DNA from: an uncultured Oscillospiraceae bacterium
GTDB lineage: Bacteria; Bacillota; Clostridia; Oscillospirales; Oscillospiraceae
DNA: 35,973 nucleotides
Assembly (NCBI GenBank): GCA_947624385.1
Contig: CANQJZ010000026.1
Location: 1-35,973 of the forward strand
Reading direction: 5' to 3'
Shown here piece after piece: positions 14,543 through 27,942 of this stretch (the stretch's first letter is position 1; every line of letters begins with the position of its first letter). The notes beneath the pieces were generated by a model that saw only the letters and a program-made list of their open reading frames with translations, searched no databases and was not told the DNA's origin. A program made the position numbers and the translations under genes.

Positions 14543-14632
14543 GTTCCGCCCTCCGGCCAGTATGTGTGGACTCAACATCAAAACATACTATGCGAAAGGT
14601 CGGAAAATGTGCGGCGGCTATTACATTGATTT

Positions 14633-14790
14633 TACCATGTCGCGCGGTTCCGGCATCAGCCGGGAGCGCGACTGGTATCTTATGGTAAAATAGCGGTTTT
14701 GCCGCTGTTGTACCATGTCGCGCGGTTCCGGCATCAGCCGGGAGCGCGACTGGTATCTTATGGTAAAATAGCGGTTTTGCCGCTATTTTA
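14633..14790 (-). repeat. Tandem pair of 78-bp hairpin repeats between murG and murA
   Basis: Units 14633-14710 and 14711-14788 have period 78 and are identical over about the first 74 bp. On the minus strand each unit folds as TACCA and GTCGCG, then CTCCCGGCT(N4)CCGGAACCG, then CGCGAC, a bulged A and TGGTA. A second hairpin with arms TAAAATAGCGG and CCGCTATTTTA (14764-14790) contains the murG stop codon. The same inner motif occurs at 27742-27905 with different outer stems. Of the gap 14543-14787, the part at 14543-14632 next to murA holds the murA ribosome site and nothing else I can name. Confidence 0.88.
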
Positions 14791-15921
14791 CTCTGTTTTG
14801 CCCTTTTGCGCAAGCCCCAGCACGATAGAGGCGATACGGTCCGTGGCGTCGGCCACGCCCAATTTCAAGCTCGCTTTGTGCATCGCGTCCAGCGCCGCCC
14901 TGTCGTTCAGCAGCCCGGTCACGGTGTCATAGAGCTTGTCGCCGTCGAACTGGCCCTCCAGGAGCATCTTCACCGCCCCGGCCTTTTCCAGCACGCGGGC
15001 GTTTTTCTCCTGATGGTTGTTGACCACGTTGGGGCTGGGGACCATCACGGCGGGCTTGCCAAGATAAGTGAGCTCGCTGATGGTGGACGCGCCGCTGCGG
15101 CATATGATCACATCCGCCGCCGCCATGACCTTGGGCATGTCGTAGATATACTCCCGCACGTCGATACAGGGACTGTGCAGGCCCGCGGCGTCCAGCTTTT
15201 CCCGCACGCCGTCGTAATAGCGCTTGCCGGTGGCGTAAATAAGATGCAGACCGTCCCCATTGCCCATCCGGCGGATAAAGCCCTGCATGGCGCTGTTCAT
15301 ATAGTCCGCGCCCAGGGAGCCGAACACCGCCAATACCACGGGTCGGTCCGGGTCCAGACCCAGCTCCCGCCGGGCCTTCGCCCTGTCCAGGTCCCGGAAG
15401 TCCACCCGCACGGGCGTACCGGTGACCTGCACCTTGTCCGGGGCTTTATAATACTGGCGGCTCTCCTCAAACCCCACCAGAATACGGTCCACAGTCTTCT
15501 CCAGGAGCCGGGTGGTCAGCCCCGGCAGGGCGTTGGACTCGTGAACCGCCGTGGGCACGCCCATGGCCGCCGCCGCCTTCAGGACCGGGTAGCACACATA
15601 GCCGCCGGTGCCAACGGCCACGTCGGGCCGAAATTCCTTTATGTACCGCCTTGCCAGCCGCTGACTGGACACCACCCGTCCCACGGCCCGGATATTGGCG
15701 GCGATCATCTTCGGCGCCAGACTGCGCTGGAACCCGGAGATACGCACGGTTTTTAAGGCGTACCCTTCCCGTGGCACCAGCTCCGTCTCCATGTGCCCCT
15801 CGGCCCCCACGAACAGAAATTCCGCGTCGGGGACCAGCTGTTTGATACGCCCCGCCACGCCCAGGGCCGGGTTGATATGGCCGGCGGTGCCGCCGCAGGT
15901 AAACAATACTCTCATGCTCAT
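14788..15921 (-). CDS. murG: Lipid II synthase MurG
   Basis: GT28 glycosyltransferase adding GlcNAc to lipid I at the inner membrane face. The 377 residues begin MSMRVLFTCGGTAGHINPAL, with the first glycine-rich loop at 9-19; HESNALPGLTTR and GSLGADYMN are the other family motifs, and the acceptor/donor site RSGASTISELTYLGKPAVMVPSPNVVNNHQ is near 270-300. Two ATG codons two positions apart are possible starts; GGGAGAG favours the first. It follows ftsW by 12 bp. Its TAA stop falls inside the first hairpin of the adjoining repeat, so the repeat begins exactly at the end of the gene. Confidence 0.97.
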   Translation of the reverse strand: MSMRVLFTCGGTAGHINPALGVAGRIKQLVPDAEFLFVGAEGHMETELVPREGYALKTVRISGFQRSLAPKMIAANIRAVGRVVSSQRLARRYIKEFRPDVAVGTGGYVCYPVLKAAAAMGVPTAVHESNALPGLTTRLLEKTVDRILVGFEESRQYYKAPDKVQVTGTPVRVDFRDLDRAKARRELGLDPDRPVVLAVFGSLGADYMNSAMQGFIRRMGNGDGLHLIYATGKRYYDGVREKLDAAGLHSPCIDVREYIYDMPKVMAAADVIICRSGASTISELTYLGKPAVMVPSPNVVNNHQEKNARVLEKAGAVKMLLEGQFDGDKLYDTVTGLLNDRAALDAMHKASLKLGVADATDRIASIVLGLAQKGKTE

Positions 15922-24432: not shown

Positions 24433-27400
24433 TTATTTGTTGTACTTCAAACTGTTGCTTGCCTTATAGCTGCTCAGCATCGTTTTCTTGTCGTTCTGGC
24501 AGCAGCGGACGGTGAATTGATAGGTCACGCCGTTTTTGAGGTACTTGGCGGCGCGGGTGTAGCTGGTCGCGGTGGTGGTGCCGATCTGCTTCCAGCCGCC
24601 GCTGCCCTCCTTGTAGTACACCATGTACCGGGGCGAGCCGGCGATCTTGTTCCACGTGACCTTGATGCCGGTGGAGACTTTGCTGATGGTCACGGTCGGC
24701 GCCGTGAGCTGGCCGGTGGCTGTATAATTCAGGCTGTTGCTGGCCTTGTAGGGGCCAAGCATAGTCTTTTTATCGTTGGCGCAGCAACGGACGGTGAACT
24801 GGTAGGACGCGCCGTTTTTGAGGTACTTGGCGGCGCGGGTGTAGCTGGTCGCGGTAGTAGTTCCTATCTGCTTCCAGCCGCCGTTATTCTCCTTGTAGTA
24901 CACCATGTACCGGGGCGCGCCGTCCACCTTGTTCCAGGTCACTTTGATGCCGGTGGAGACCTTCACGATGGTCACCGTGGGCGCGGCAAGCTGGCCGGCG
25001 GTATATTGCAGGCTGTTGCTGGCCTTAAAGGGACTGAGCATGGTTTTTTTGTCGTTGGCGCAGCTGCGGACGGTGAATTGATAGGTCACGCCGTTTTTGA
25101 GGTACTTGGCGGCGCGGGTGTAGCTGGTCGCGGTAGTAGTTCCTATCTGCTTCCAGCCGCCGCTGTTCTCCTTATAATACACCATGTACCGCTCCGCGCC
25201 GGCGCACTTGTTCCACGTGACCTTGATGCCGTTGGACGCCAGGGCGATGGTCACCGTGGGCGTCTCGGCCTGGTAGTTGTTGGAAACCGCTGCCGTGCTG
25301 CCGTCGGATGCGGCGACCACCACCGCCCGGTTCTTTGCCGCGCCGATCACCGTATTGCCCGTGATCGTGCCGCCGCTGGACTTGCCGCTCACCCCGATAC
25401 CGCAGTCTCCGGGGGAGGTGACGGTGTTGCCGCTGACCGTCGTGGTGCTGGAGCCCTCCGCGATGTGGATGCCGTGGCGGCCGGGAGAGGCGATGGTGTT
25501 GTTCTGGATGCTGGCAGCCGCCGCCTTGCTGTAAACGAAGATGCCGCAGTTCGCGGGGCCGGTGACCGTATTGCCGGTGACGGCCTTCACCTGGGAATTG
25601 GAGACCACGATGCCGTAACCGCCCGCGTCCGTGACCGTGTTGGCGTCAACGGAGCTTGCTTTGCTCTGGGCCAGGCAATCGTACACATAGATGCCGTGGG
25701 CCTTGGGGGACGTGATCCTGTTGCCGGTGGCGGTCAGCGTGGAATCAGCCGACACGATGATACCGCTTTTGCCCGCGTTGTCCAGCGTGTTATTCGTGGC
25801 GGTCACGGCGGTGTTTTCCGCCCCGATGGCCTGCCCGGCGGGGCCGGTGATGGTGTTCCCGGAGGCGTTCAGGGTGCTGCCCCCCGCCGCGTAGATGCCG
25901 TTGCCCCTGGCCGACGTGATCTTGTTGCCGGTGGCGGTCAGCACAGTGCCGTTTTGCCCCAGCAGACCGTTGCTGCCCGGCGTCTCGATGGTGTTATTCT
26001 CGACCGTGAGCGTGGAGCCCTCACCGCCGATGCCGTTGCCGGCGGCGTCGGTGACAGTGTTCCCACTGGCGGTCACGGTGGAGTTGGATGCCCAGATGCC
26101 GTGGGCGCCGGGCTTGGTAAGCGTGTTATCCGTCACGGTGACGCCGGTGCTGTCCTTCACCAGCACGCCGTTTTTGCTGACGTTCTGCACCGTATTGCCG
26201 GTGACGGACGAAGAGCGCACATCCTGCATGCCGATACCGTGGCAGTCGCCGGTGCCGGTGACCGTGTTGCCGGTGACGTTCGCGCCGCCGATGAAATGAT
26301 CGACCCCGCCCAGTTCATAGCCCCGCACCATAATGCCGCAGGATTCGGCGGCGCTGTATTGGTCGGTACCGGCGACCGTGATGACATTGCCGCTGACGGT
26401 GATGGCCTGGTCGGCGGCGGGCGCCGTGTAGCCGTTGGGGGCGTAGACCTCGCCGCCCTCCTGGCTCACGGAGCTGACCACGATGCCCCGGGGCGCCGTG
26501 ATGGTATTGTTGGAGAAGCTGCAGCCGGTCCAGCCGAAGGAGAAGATGGCCGTGCTCCCGATGCCGGAGAAGGTACACCCGCTCACGGTGACGCCGCTGA
26601 TGGGGCAGCCGATAACATTTGTGTGTCCGCCCACGCCCCGGGGCACGTTGGTGAACGTGCAGCCGGACACGGTGACGCCGCTGGTGGCCAGATCTTCCTC
26701 CCGGTAGCCCGTGATATGGGCCGATCTGAGCACGTCGATCTGGATGGACTCGAAGGTGCCGGTGGCCGCGTCTGCAGCCAGAAGCTGGTTGGAAAAAGCG
26801 CAGCCGCTGATGGTAAGGCCGCTCACGCCCGCGATCTCCACCAGGTGGGCGTTGTTGACGTTGGTCAGCGTCACGCCGCTGACGACGACGTTCGCGGCGT
26901 GGCACATTTTCAGCACGGTGGTATCGCCGCCGCTGCCGTCCAGGGTGCCGCCCTTGATGGTGATGTTGGTAAAGGCATAGCCCGTGGCGCCGGTACTGGT
27001 GGAATAGTCCGGGCTCCGGTCCTGCTGCAGGCCCAAAAAGACCATGTTGTAGGAAACGCCCAAGGAGGACGTTCCGCTGCGCCGGAGCGTCACGCCCGTC
27101 AAATCGAAAATGGTGTTGCTGCCCACGGACAGGGACTGGCTCTCCAGCGTATACGTGCCCGCCGGGACCGTGACCGTACAGGGGGCGCTGGCCGTACCGG
27201 CTGCTGCGGCCTTGTCCAGCGCGTTCTGGATCGCCACGGCGGCCCCCAGGCTCGCAATATCCGCCGCGGACACGGTGATGGTATCCCCGGCCGCGACCGT
27301 ATCCGGCTCCGCCTCTTCCTCTTCCTCCGGTTCCGCCACAGGCTCTTCCGTGACCACGGGCTCTTCCGTGACCACAGGCTCTTCCGTGACCACAGGTTCT

Positions 27401-27657
27401 TCCGTGGCCACAGGCTCTTCCGTGGCCACAGGTTCTTCCGTAACCACAGGTTCTTCCGTCGCCACAGGTTCTTCCGTGGTCACAGGTTCTTCCGTGACCA
27501 CAGGCTCTTCCGTGACCACGGGTTCTTCCGTCGCCACAGGCTCTTCCGTGACCACGGGCTCTTCTGTCACGGCGGGCTCTTCCTCGGCAAACGCCGGGAC
27601 CGCCAGGGAAAACAGGCAGAGCACCGCCAGAATAAGACATACCGCACGCTTTTTCAT
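24433..27657 (-). CDS. Secreted beta-helix protein with TEEPV repeats and three fibronectin-III-like domains
   Basis: A 1074-residue exported protein, probably at the cell surface or released. The ATG at 27657 follows GGGGAGG and opens a signal peptide (MKKRAVCLILAVLCLFSLA, AFA cleavage near residue 24). Then comes an acidic stalk of 13 tandem TEEPV units with 6-residue period (about 26-108), and a right-handed beta-helix of the pectate-lyase/NosD type (about 120-790) with many turns such as VTGNTVTG and ITVSGNVITV. Three FN3-like modules of 92-94 residues (about 796-1074) share TWNK, RYMVYYKE, GWKQIGTTTATSYTRAAKYL and YQFTVR. I see no LPXTG, SLH or choline-binding anchor, and no catalytic pectate-lyase residues I could vouch for. 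Adhesion or glycan binding is a guess. The flanks are repeat-rich. Confidence 0.9.
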   Translation of the reverse strand: MKKRAVCLILAVLCLFSLAVPAFAEEEPAVTEEPVVTEEPVATEEPVVTEEPVVTEEPVTTEEPVATEEPVVTEEPVATEEPVATEEPVVTEEPVVTEEPVVTEEPVAEPEEEEEAEPDTVAAGDTITVSAADIASLGAAVAIQNALDKAAAAGTASAPCTVTVPAGTYTLESQSLSVGSNTIFDLTGVTLRRSGTSSLGVSYNMVFLGLQQDRSPDYSTSTGATGYAFTNITIKGGTLDGSGGDTTVLKMCHAANVVVSGVTLTNVNNAHLVEIAGVSGLTISGCAFSNQLLAADAATGTFESIQIDVLRSAHITGYREEDLATSGVTVSGCTFTNVPRGVGGHTNVIGCPISGVTVSGCTFSGIGSTAIFSFGWTGCSFSNNTITAPRGIVVSSVSQEGGEVYAPNGYTAPAADQAITVSGNVITVAGTDQYSAAESCGIMVRGYELGGVDHFIGGANVTGNTVTGTGDCHGIGMQDVRSSSVTGNTVQNVSKNGVLVKDSTGVTVTDNTLTKPGAHGIWASNSTVTASGNTVTDAAGNGIGGEGSTLTVENNTIETPGSNGLLGQNGTVLTATGNKITSARGNGIYAAGGSTLNASGNTITGPAGQAIGAENTAVTATNNTLDNAGKSGIIVSADSTLTATGNRITSPKAHGIYVYDCLAQSKASSVDANTVTDAGGYGIVVSNSQVKAVTGNTVTGPANCGIFVYSKAAAASIQNNTIASPGRHGIHIAEGSSTTTVSGNTVTSPGDCGIGVSGKSSGGTITGNTVIGAAKNRAVVVAASDGSTAAVSNNYQAETPTVTIALASNGIKVTWNKCAGAERYMVYYKENSGGWKQIGTTTATSYTRAAKYLKNGVTYQFTVRSCANDKKTMLSPFKASNSLQYTAGQLAAPTVTIVKVSTGIKVTWNKVDGAPRYMVYYKENNGGWKQIGTTTATSYTRAAKYLKNGASYQFTVRCCANDKKTMLGPYKASNSLNYTATGQLTAPTVTISKVSTGIKVTWNKIAGSPRYMVYYKEGSGGWKQIGTTTATSYTRAAKYLKNGVTYQFTVRCCQNDKKTMLSSYKASNSLKYNK
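24440..25270 (-). repeat. Three tandem near-identical FN3-coding segments
   Basis: Segments of 282 and 279 bp period (equivalent points at 24511, 24793 and 25072) are nearly identical in DNA over long stretches, for instance around the KQIGTTTATSYTRAAKYLKN coding part. Such DNA identity, beyond protein conservation, points to recent duplication or gene conversion. Confidence 0.8.
27335..27575 (-). repeat. 18-bp minisatellite coding for TEEPV repeats
   Basis: Thirteen in-frame 18-bp units encode (V/A/T)TEEPV with small variation at the first residue codon (GTC, GCC, ACC types). Unit number can change by slippage without a frame shift, so stalk length may vary among strains. Confidence 0.85.
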
Positions 27658-27696: not shown

Positions 27697-27906
27697 ATGC
27701 TATAATAGCCGCAAGCGGCTATTATACAGGATTTAGGGCGGTTTTGCTCCCGGCTTGCGCCGGAACCGCAAAACATGCCGTATTATAGCACATTCGTGCT
27801 ATAATAGCCATGGGTGGCAATTATAAAATGATTTGAGGCATTTTGCTCCCGGCTTGCGCCGGAACCGCAAAACATGCCGTATTATAGCACATTCGTGCTA
27901 TAATAT
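27697..27906 (+). repeat. Hairpin repeat cluster upstream of the beta-helix gene
   Basis: A first hairpin (27700-27725) has arms TATAATAGCCG and CGGCTATTATA. Two units with 99-bp period follow: 27742-27806 and 27841-27905. Each holds the motif CTCCCGGCT(N4)CCGGAACCG flanked by (G)TTTTG and CAAAA(C), then a bulged A and TGCC, then a hairpin with arms TATTATAGCAC and GTGCTATAATA. The same inner motif occurs at 14633-14788 on the other strand. These elements, with the spacers, fill the gap 27658-27942; I see no gene there. Confidence 0.88.
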
Positions 27907-27942
27907 ATCCACGCCCGCCGAATTTGTCAACGGGCGCGGTCG

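Follow-up and report, generated by a model that had tools for sequence, protein, structure and literature searches.

What does a conserved hairpin do that stands twice in tandem between murG and murA, and twice again in a gap near 27.7 kb beside a beta-helix gene? The stretch that we analysed, here called the window, comprises 35,973 nt from an uncultured Oscillospiraceae bacterium, and an earlier sequence-only reading of it had proposed either a REP-like element spread by a transposase or a structured RNA family. Our analysis points to a small, non-autonomous mobile hairpin element, which probably inserts mainly at promoter −10 boxes and mostly in the direction of the promoter, with a proposed self-restoring layout and a putative recombinase acting in trans.

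The element and its copies in the window and genome

The core of the element, CTCCCGGCT(N4)CCGGAACCG, was found exactly at 14645-14666 and 14723-14744 on the minus strand (murG-murA gap) and at 27747-27768 and 27846-27867 on the plus strand (27.7-kb gap), which verifies all four copies described at the two loci. In 100 shuffles, core matches with up to three mismatches averaged 0.18 (maximum 1). The genome-wide search that had been advised showed copies beyond the window: the 2.18-Mb genome holds 25 exact cores and one with a single mismatch, and a reversed-pattern control gave 0 matches.

Each unit is laid out as a palindrome with a −10-like box (H1), a short linker and the conserved hairpin (H2). 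From its foot inwards, H2 consists of stem 2, an A bulged on the 3' side, stem 1, and an internal loop TC/AACC that a C-G pair closes; inside lies the inner stem CCGGC/GCCGG, capped by four variable loop nucleotides. The copies fall into two families. Family B (unit ~78 bp) mostly has GTCGYG/CRCGAC as stem 1 and TACCR/TGGTA as stem 2, and its ends, TAAYAG... and ...CATGG, are without terminal inverted repeats. Family A (unit ~99 bp) has GTTTTG/CAAAAC and GGC/GCC, carries a third hairpin (H3) in most copies, and has partly inverted ends, TGCTATAATG...CATTATAGCA. At its foot the hairpin mostly reads TACC(A/G) or GGC(A/G), and tandem arrays reach up to 4 units. Stem 2, the bulged A, the 78- and 99-bp tandem periods and the AT-rich neighbouring hairpins were all as first described. 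The pairing of stem 1 stood for GTCGCG/CGCGAC and GTTTTG/CAAAAC but not in full for the second copy of locus 2, which reads ATTTTG/CAAAAC and leaves its outermost pair, A·C, unpaired.

Features of locus 1, the murG-murA gap:

14808..14813, minus strand: TTGCGC, the murA promoter's host −35, separated from the left box by 17 bp; also in the two nearest relatives, both without the element
14785..14790, minus strand: left −10 box TAAAAT, overlapping the murG stop codon TAA and forming the 5' arm of unit-1 H1
14764..14790, minus strand: unit-1 H1, palindrome TAAAATAGCGG...CCGCTATTTTA around the predicted transcription start
14711..14755, minus strand: unit-1 H2, the conserved hairpin, TACCAGTCGCG-CTC-CCGGC-TGAT-GCCGG-AACCG-CGCGAC-A-TGGTA
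14707..14712, minus strand: internal box TACAAC between the units
14686..14712, minus strand: unit-2 H1, arms partly mismatched
14633..14677, minus strand: unit-2 H2
14629..14634, minus strand: right −10 box TAAAAT, after the element's TGG (extended −10)

Features of locus 2, the 27.7-kb gap:

27701..27726, plus strand: unit 1, left box TATAAT and H1
27737..27779, plus strand: unit 1, H2 (GGCGGTTTTG..CAAAACATGCC)
27781..27806, plus strand: unit 1, H3 (TATTATAGCAC..GTGCTATAATA), family A only
27800..27825, plus strand: unit 2, H1, imperfect
27836..27878, plus strand: unit 2, H2, outermost stem-1 pair A·C
27880..27905, plus strand: unit 2, H3, ending in TGCTATAAT
27902..27930, minus strand: promoter-like motif TTGACA-17-TATATT reading to the beta-helix gene (a motif match only)

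Folding and covariation

Both regions of the window fold much better than their shuffles (z −8.7 and −7.3). Without a pairing filter, at least 5 of the 6 stem-1 pairs were kept in 142 of 147 distinct copies, which is a weak measure because arms taken from two different copies pair equally well 82% of the time; our argument therefore rests on double-sided changes between families A and B. In a set of 45 diverse copies, prefiltered for at least 5/6 stem-1 pairs, 69 cells were altered on both sides, compared with 24.9 in shuffles (0 of 500 reached 69) and with no more than 25 when registers were slid. Two coarser measures on the same copies were unremarkable, namely the pairs with a change on both sides (7 vs 5.6 in shuffles, 37 of 500 of which reached it) and the further pair types (15 vs 16.5, reached by 492 of 500). 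The proposal that pairing is kept while sequence changes is thus borne out by the double-sided cells and gains nothing from the coarser counts.

The outer stems vary, with pairing largely kept, around a constant CTC/AACCG internal loop and the bulged A. The inner stem is nearly constant within the genus; in distant relatives it is mostly CCGCC/GGCGG, CCCGA/TCGGG, GCCGC/GCGGC or CCGTC/GACGG between unchanged CTC/AACCG flanks, a conservation that is partly by construction because the search pattern demanded the flanks and a paired inner stem. With regard to the folding strand, one stem-2 pair is G·T in 104 of 147 copies, which suggests which strand folds; at the other ten stem positions A·C cells (at most 37) exceed G·T cells (20), so that the wobble pairs are equivocal about the strand.

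At the curated cut-off, Rfam left the element unmatched and gave a sole hit, 6S RNA in L177, apart from the element. Relaxed searches returned sub-threshold matches only: P15 at 27.5 bits (cut-off 70) beside the copies at L024, sR28 elsewhere, and others around tRNA and rRNA genes.

Gain of the element at murA and at other sites

The two nearest relatives (98% and 95% identity over the 210-nt murA query) have a plain murA promoter, TTGCGC-17-TAAAAT, reading ...CTTGCGCAAAAGGGCAAAACAGAG-TAAAAT-CAAT.... The window genome has the same promoter with two units placed between two copies of TAAAAT, and downstream of the right box (14629..14634) follows the murA leader common to relatives. The murA query matched 26 of the 35 genomes of the genus, own included. 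Upstream of murA, the element was seen in 0 of 22 relatives (23 readable regions including our own, of 24 loci tried; L277, below the alignment cut, and four weak matches were left out of the comparison), and GAGTAAAAT stood at the promoter position in 10 of these 22.

At locus 2, the query matched 27 genomes, own included, and the element was seen in 0 of the 20 relatives read; six weak matches lie outside that set. L284 alone visibly keeps the gene order, with a gap that is short and empty. The element is oriented against the beta-helix gene, and its right end overlaps the −10 of TTGACA-17-TATATT, so that locus 2 may also touch a promoter, in inverted orientation. A motif of this type was found at 1 of the 13 clusters that face an opposite-strand gene (locus 2 itself); the other 12 are without it. 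The beta-helix gene also contains two tandem repeats, one of 18 bp near its start (27336-27583, 13.8 copies), likely a low-complexity protein stretch, and one of 279 bp at its 3' end (24452-25262, 2.9 copies).

Including murA, insertion polymorphism was observed at six sites. The five others are the filled/empty pairs L026/L077 (smpB), L014/L110 (serC), L067 vs L074 and L133, L074 vs L067, and L126/L064 (addB), the last with flanks only 74-76% identical. Two candidates were left uncounted: L042/L083, which gave no clean alignment, and L053/L051, where both carry the element. The number of units differs as well, 2 versus 1 between L048 and L138 (flanks 97-98% identical) and between L142 and L108 (about 90%); in another genus, four species have 1, 2, 2 and 3 units at one orthologous site. 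The mobility part of the proposal of a REP-like mobile element is therefore supported by six polymorphic sites, by tandem changes and by a scatter upstream of mostly unrelated genes.

The site of L067 is not a promoter. There, the gene-end sequence TGTGGT|GCAGG became TGTGGTATAAAAGACGC...GACATGGTACAGG; the left box arrived with the element, and one host base differs. The empty site has no TATAAT and reads GTGCAG, with TG where TA is needed for a TA duplication. Since this box was not duplicated, simple box duplication cannot explain every site. Near 542-650 of L067, the insertion adds an in-frame stop (GTA TAA), and the host gene is a few codons shorter than in L074.

These sites bear on whether the element is a DDE-type MITE with TA target duplication. 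Promoter insertions allow the reading TA|TAAT, flanked by TA left and right, and the partly inverted ends of family A would suit such an element. Given the TG at L067 and the lack of terminal inverted repeats in family B, we regard this origin as improbable.

Placement and orientation at promoters

We compiled 108 clusters from own-genome, genus and contig-scan loci (for the contig scan, among the matches listed). Of the 107 with enough upstream sequence, 98 have a −10-like box as the 5' arm of H1; the box was picked by its likeness to TATAAT and by pairing, never by upstream sequence. A TTG stands exactly 17 bp upstream of the left box at 40 of the 98 sites, compared with 0-9 at any other spacing, and 16-18 bp upstream at 57, compared with 0-8 at spacings of 8-15 and 19-39; 41 of the 98 have a box without TTG at 16-18 bp. 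Other genera of the order gave 21/46 at 17 bp and 25/46 at 16-18 bp, with 0-2 at 10-15 and 19-31. Keeping one site per orthologue group left 34/88 at 17 and 50/88 at 16-18 in the genus (others at most 6), and 20/42 and 23/42 in the other genera (others at most 3). A single record, L056/L177, is present in both the genus and the distant sets; L056 is an Oscillospiraceae MAG of another set and the same record as G183 of another family.

Genes were called with a codon-pair model made for this purpose, for which the window (16 chosen minus-strand ORFs) was the training material; it is less reliable in other genera. Of 10 window ORFs sent to Pfam, 9 gave a family. The gene strands around the 108 clusters were ++ 44, −− 5, −+ 36 and +− 8, with 9 overlapping genes and 6 at contig edges. 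Only the ++ and −− clusters are informative for orientation, and their ratio of 44 to 5 (two-sided binomial 8e-9) shows that the element is usually codirectional with the downstream gene; without orthologues the counts were 41 and 5, and in the distant set 18 and 4. Differing orientation relative to the genes at the two window loci had been offered as an argument for a mobile element, and it fails in general, locus 2 being exceptional. A TTG at 16-18 bp accompanied 47 of 76 copies with a codirectional downstream gene and 5 of 13 that face an opposite gene. Not every copy is promoter-placed: 13 of the 108 clusters face an opposite-strand gene and 9 overlap predicted genes.

With CATGG as the 3' end of the element, the right-hand box becomes an extended −10. 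Over 80 clusters, the right box and the predicted start codon lie a median of 53 nt apart. These positions suggest how insertion could be tolerated. Insertion at a −10 box would leave a −10-like box on either side. The host −35 would then pair with the left box, and transcription would start inside H1 and run through H2. The last bases of the element (CATGG; TGC in family A) would supply the TGn extension to the right-hand box, so that the gene would keep an extended −10 promoter at about the original distance to its start codon. With this self-restoring layout, promoters may be safe landing sites, and insertion may be nearly neutral.

Of the proteins downstream of the 80 codirectional clusters, 50 were scanned, and 44 had a Pfam family, of many unrelated kinds; some families recur as orthologues. 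DNA-repair genes seem frequent in this background-free count (lexA-like, uvrA, uvrB, addB, mutY and recO; for example L002, L072, L160, L126, L134 and L124).

The strong bias to a position just 5' of codirectional genes could also mean that H2 is a 5'-leader RNA (riboswitch or protein-binding hairpin) of a regulon, multiplied by duplication. The conserved internal loop, the several DNA-repair genes downstream, and L233/L237, which have a promoter and H2 with H1 missing, would agree with a cis-regulatory leader. We nonetheless hold it to be rather unlikely, as the other downstream genes are unrelated, which weakens a regulon, the gain at murA is recent with the old promoter intact in relatives, some copies stand at the ends of genes or form tandem arrays as long as 4 units, and the pattern is missing in 11 of the 35 genus genomes (several of them incomplete).

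Distribution across genomes

By pattern search, 24 of the 35 genomes of the genus carry the element (own included) and 0 of 25 outside it, counts in which matches in incomplete genomes can be missed. A covariance model extended the range within gut Oscillospirales: of 394 genomes drawn from this order, 16 have relatives of the element, our own among them, and they belong to 12 of 169 genera. In another family, four genomes have 8 to 13 copies apiece, and a genome from a third family has 10; these are lower bounds because only 15 candidates per genome were scored, with stricter filters. A pattern scan of genome contigs gave at least 109 matching stretches; those from Streptomyces, Curtobacterium and other unrelated genera were dropped, their flanks being mostly without pairing. 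Searching IMG/VR with the element pattern gave 0 exact matches. The named carriers are mostly MAGs with isolate names starting with Lapin, which we read as rabbit.

Site choice and the search for a mobilising enzyme

Left and right boxes agree at position 3 in 56 of 79 cases, compared with 41.7 by chance, which fits either duplication or the choice of similar targets. H1's 3' arm agrees with the box to its left even where that box is a variant (at position 3 in 87 of 91, with 59 expected), an agreement that is favoured since boxes were found partly by pairing. Such a match could come from target choice by pairing or from quasi-palindrome correction after insertion. In the four-unit array of L019, only the leftmost H1 arm matches the host TAAAAT, and the inner units differ.

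A mechanism of the first kind would have the 3' arm of H1 (ATTATA and variants), complementary to the −10 box, guide site choice by base pairing: single-stranded DNA, or RNA from a host promoter, would pair with the non-template strand where it is melted in an open promoter complex, and insertion would be directional and targeted to active promoters without Y1, IS110 or reverse-transcriptase enzymes. We consider this route unlikely. Agreement of the arm with the host flank is confined to −1 and box position 1; matching over a long, guide-like stretch is thus unsupported in this genus.

Under the second, no dedicated enzyme would be needed: template switching in replication, or annealing at TATAAT microhomology, would spread the element, and quasi-palindrome correction would perfect H1. 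The H1 arms that match the box on their left, the L019 array and the existence of carriers without Y1, IS110 or RT are all compatible with such an origin, which we judge quite unlikely. The imperfect H2 has been retained; its internal loop and bulge were never corrected to a perfect palindrome, and we take this as pointing to recognition of a folded form. In the mobile-element account that we prefer, a putative trans-acting recombinase most likely recognises H2 as a folded hairpin with a fixed internal loop and a bulged A.

With regard to that recombinase, the sequence-only reading had suggested looking for a Y1 (RAYT/IS200-like) transposase gene. The look did not bear out that suggestion: our genome (93% complete) has no Y1_Tnp, and neither do 15 of the 24 genus carriers. 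Within the genus, Y1 is present in 9 of the 24 carriers and in 3 of the 11 genomes without pattern matches. Outside the genus it was found in 5 of 15 carriers, each with one or two model hits, and in 0 of the 7 with three or more, all at least 90% complete. Around the Y1 genes of the genus (12 loci), the core gave only two chance-like matches with three mismatches. None of Y1, IS110 and RVT_1 occurs in any of the four f7/g9 carriers; in our own genome, IS110 has a single partial match and RT a single match. Y1_Tnp, IS110 and RVT_1 were thus set aside as movers, as none of the three occurs in every carrier tested.

A canonical REP spread by a Y1 transposase, with the foot guide TACC pairing with a right cleavage site GGTA, would account for an imperfect, bulged hairpin in many intergenic copies, for directional insertion and, in family B, the lack of clear terminal inverted repeats, for the complementarity of the foot TACC to the element end GGTA, and for the Y1 genes of those carriers that have them. 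We find it very improbable, given the carriers without Y1 (our own, the 15 in the genus and the seven multi-hit ones outside), the examined Y1 loci without a convincing core, and the hairpin foot, from which a GTAG or CGTC tetranucleotide is absent. The REP/RAYT part of the earlier proposal is thus unsupported.

Comparison with known elements

The sequences of the BOX, RUP and SPRITE repeats of pneumococcus differ from that of the element, and we know of no targeting of −10 boxes by them. As far as the available parts of PMC10969869 describe them, they resemble it as modular, structured, clustered and possibly transcribed repeats. From the same partial source, Correia elements of Neisseria and other bacterial MITEs are likewise small, non-autonomous, located upstream of genes and equipped with promoter sequences (PMC10969869); in contrast to these, family B has no terminal inverted repeats, and the element lands on a −10 box that is left on both sides.

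Like our short, imperfectly palindromic, multi-copy intergenic hairpin, REPs with their TnpA-REP/RAYT are, in the excerpts available of PMC8266576 and PMC3733652, short imperfect bulged hairpins in many intergenic copies, for which recognition of the folded strand is likely; the element differs by its foot without GTAG/CGTC and by a genome without a Y1 transposase. REPs lie close to gene 3' ends according to the same excerpts (PMC8266576, PMC3733652), whereas the element lies mainly at promoter −10 boxes and is promoter-directed. The pairing of guide and cleavage site at IS200/IS605 ends, as outlined in part of PMC8266576, resembles the foot-end complementarity TACC/GGTA, but our genome has no TnpA and the element, at ~78 bp, is too short for a transposase gene.

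A literature search over titles and the starts of abstracts returned no element of such sequence and no mobile hairpin aimed at −10 boxes, which leaves absence from print unproven. If our interpretation is correct, landing on a −10 box and rebuilding it would be a new solution to harmless insertion. It would also rewire the promoters of many housekeeping genes in gut bacteria, through a second start, a hairpin leader and tandem promoters. The carriers without the three candidate enzyme families make the missing mover a concrete question.

Unusual copies

In two species (G085 and G066; L235 and L236), an H2-like hairpin has on one side a 31-nt duplicate of the 5' part of tRNA-Lys and on the other the whole tRNA-Lys gene, which is followed by an inverted copy of GCACCTGACTC; this arrangement is possibly an insertion into the tRNA gene. 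In G107 (L185, L248, L250) and G215 (L188), H2 stands directly 3' of genes within long perfect palindromes, which take in the last codons or the stop of the upstream gene. At L185, L248 and L188, an extra arm is complementary, by eye, to the ribosome-binding region of the next gene.
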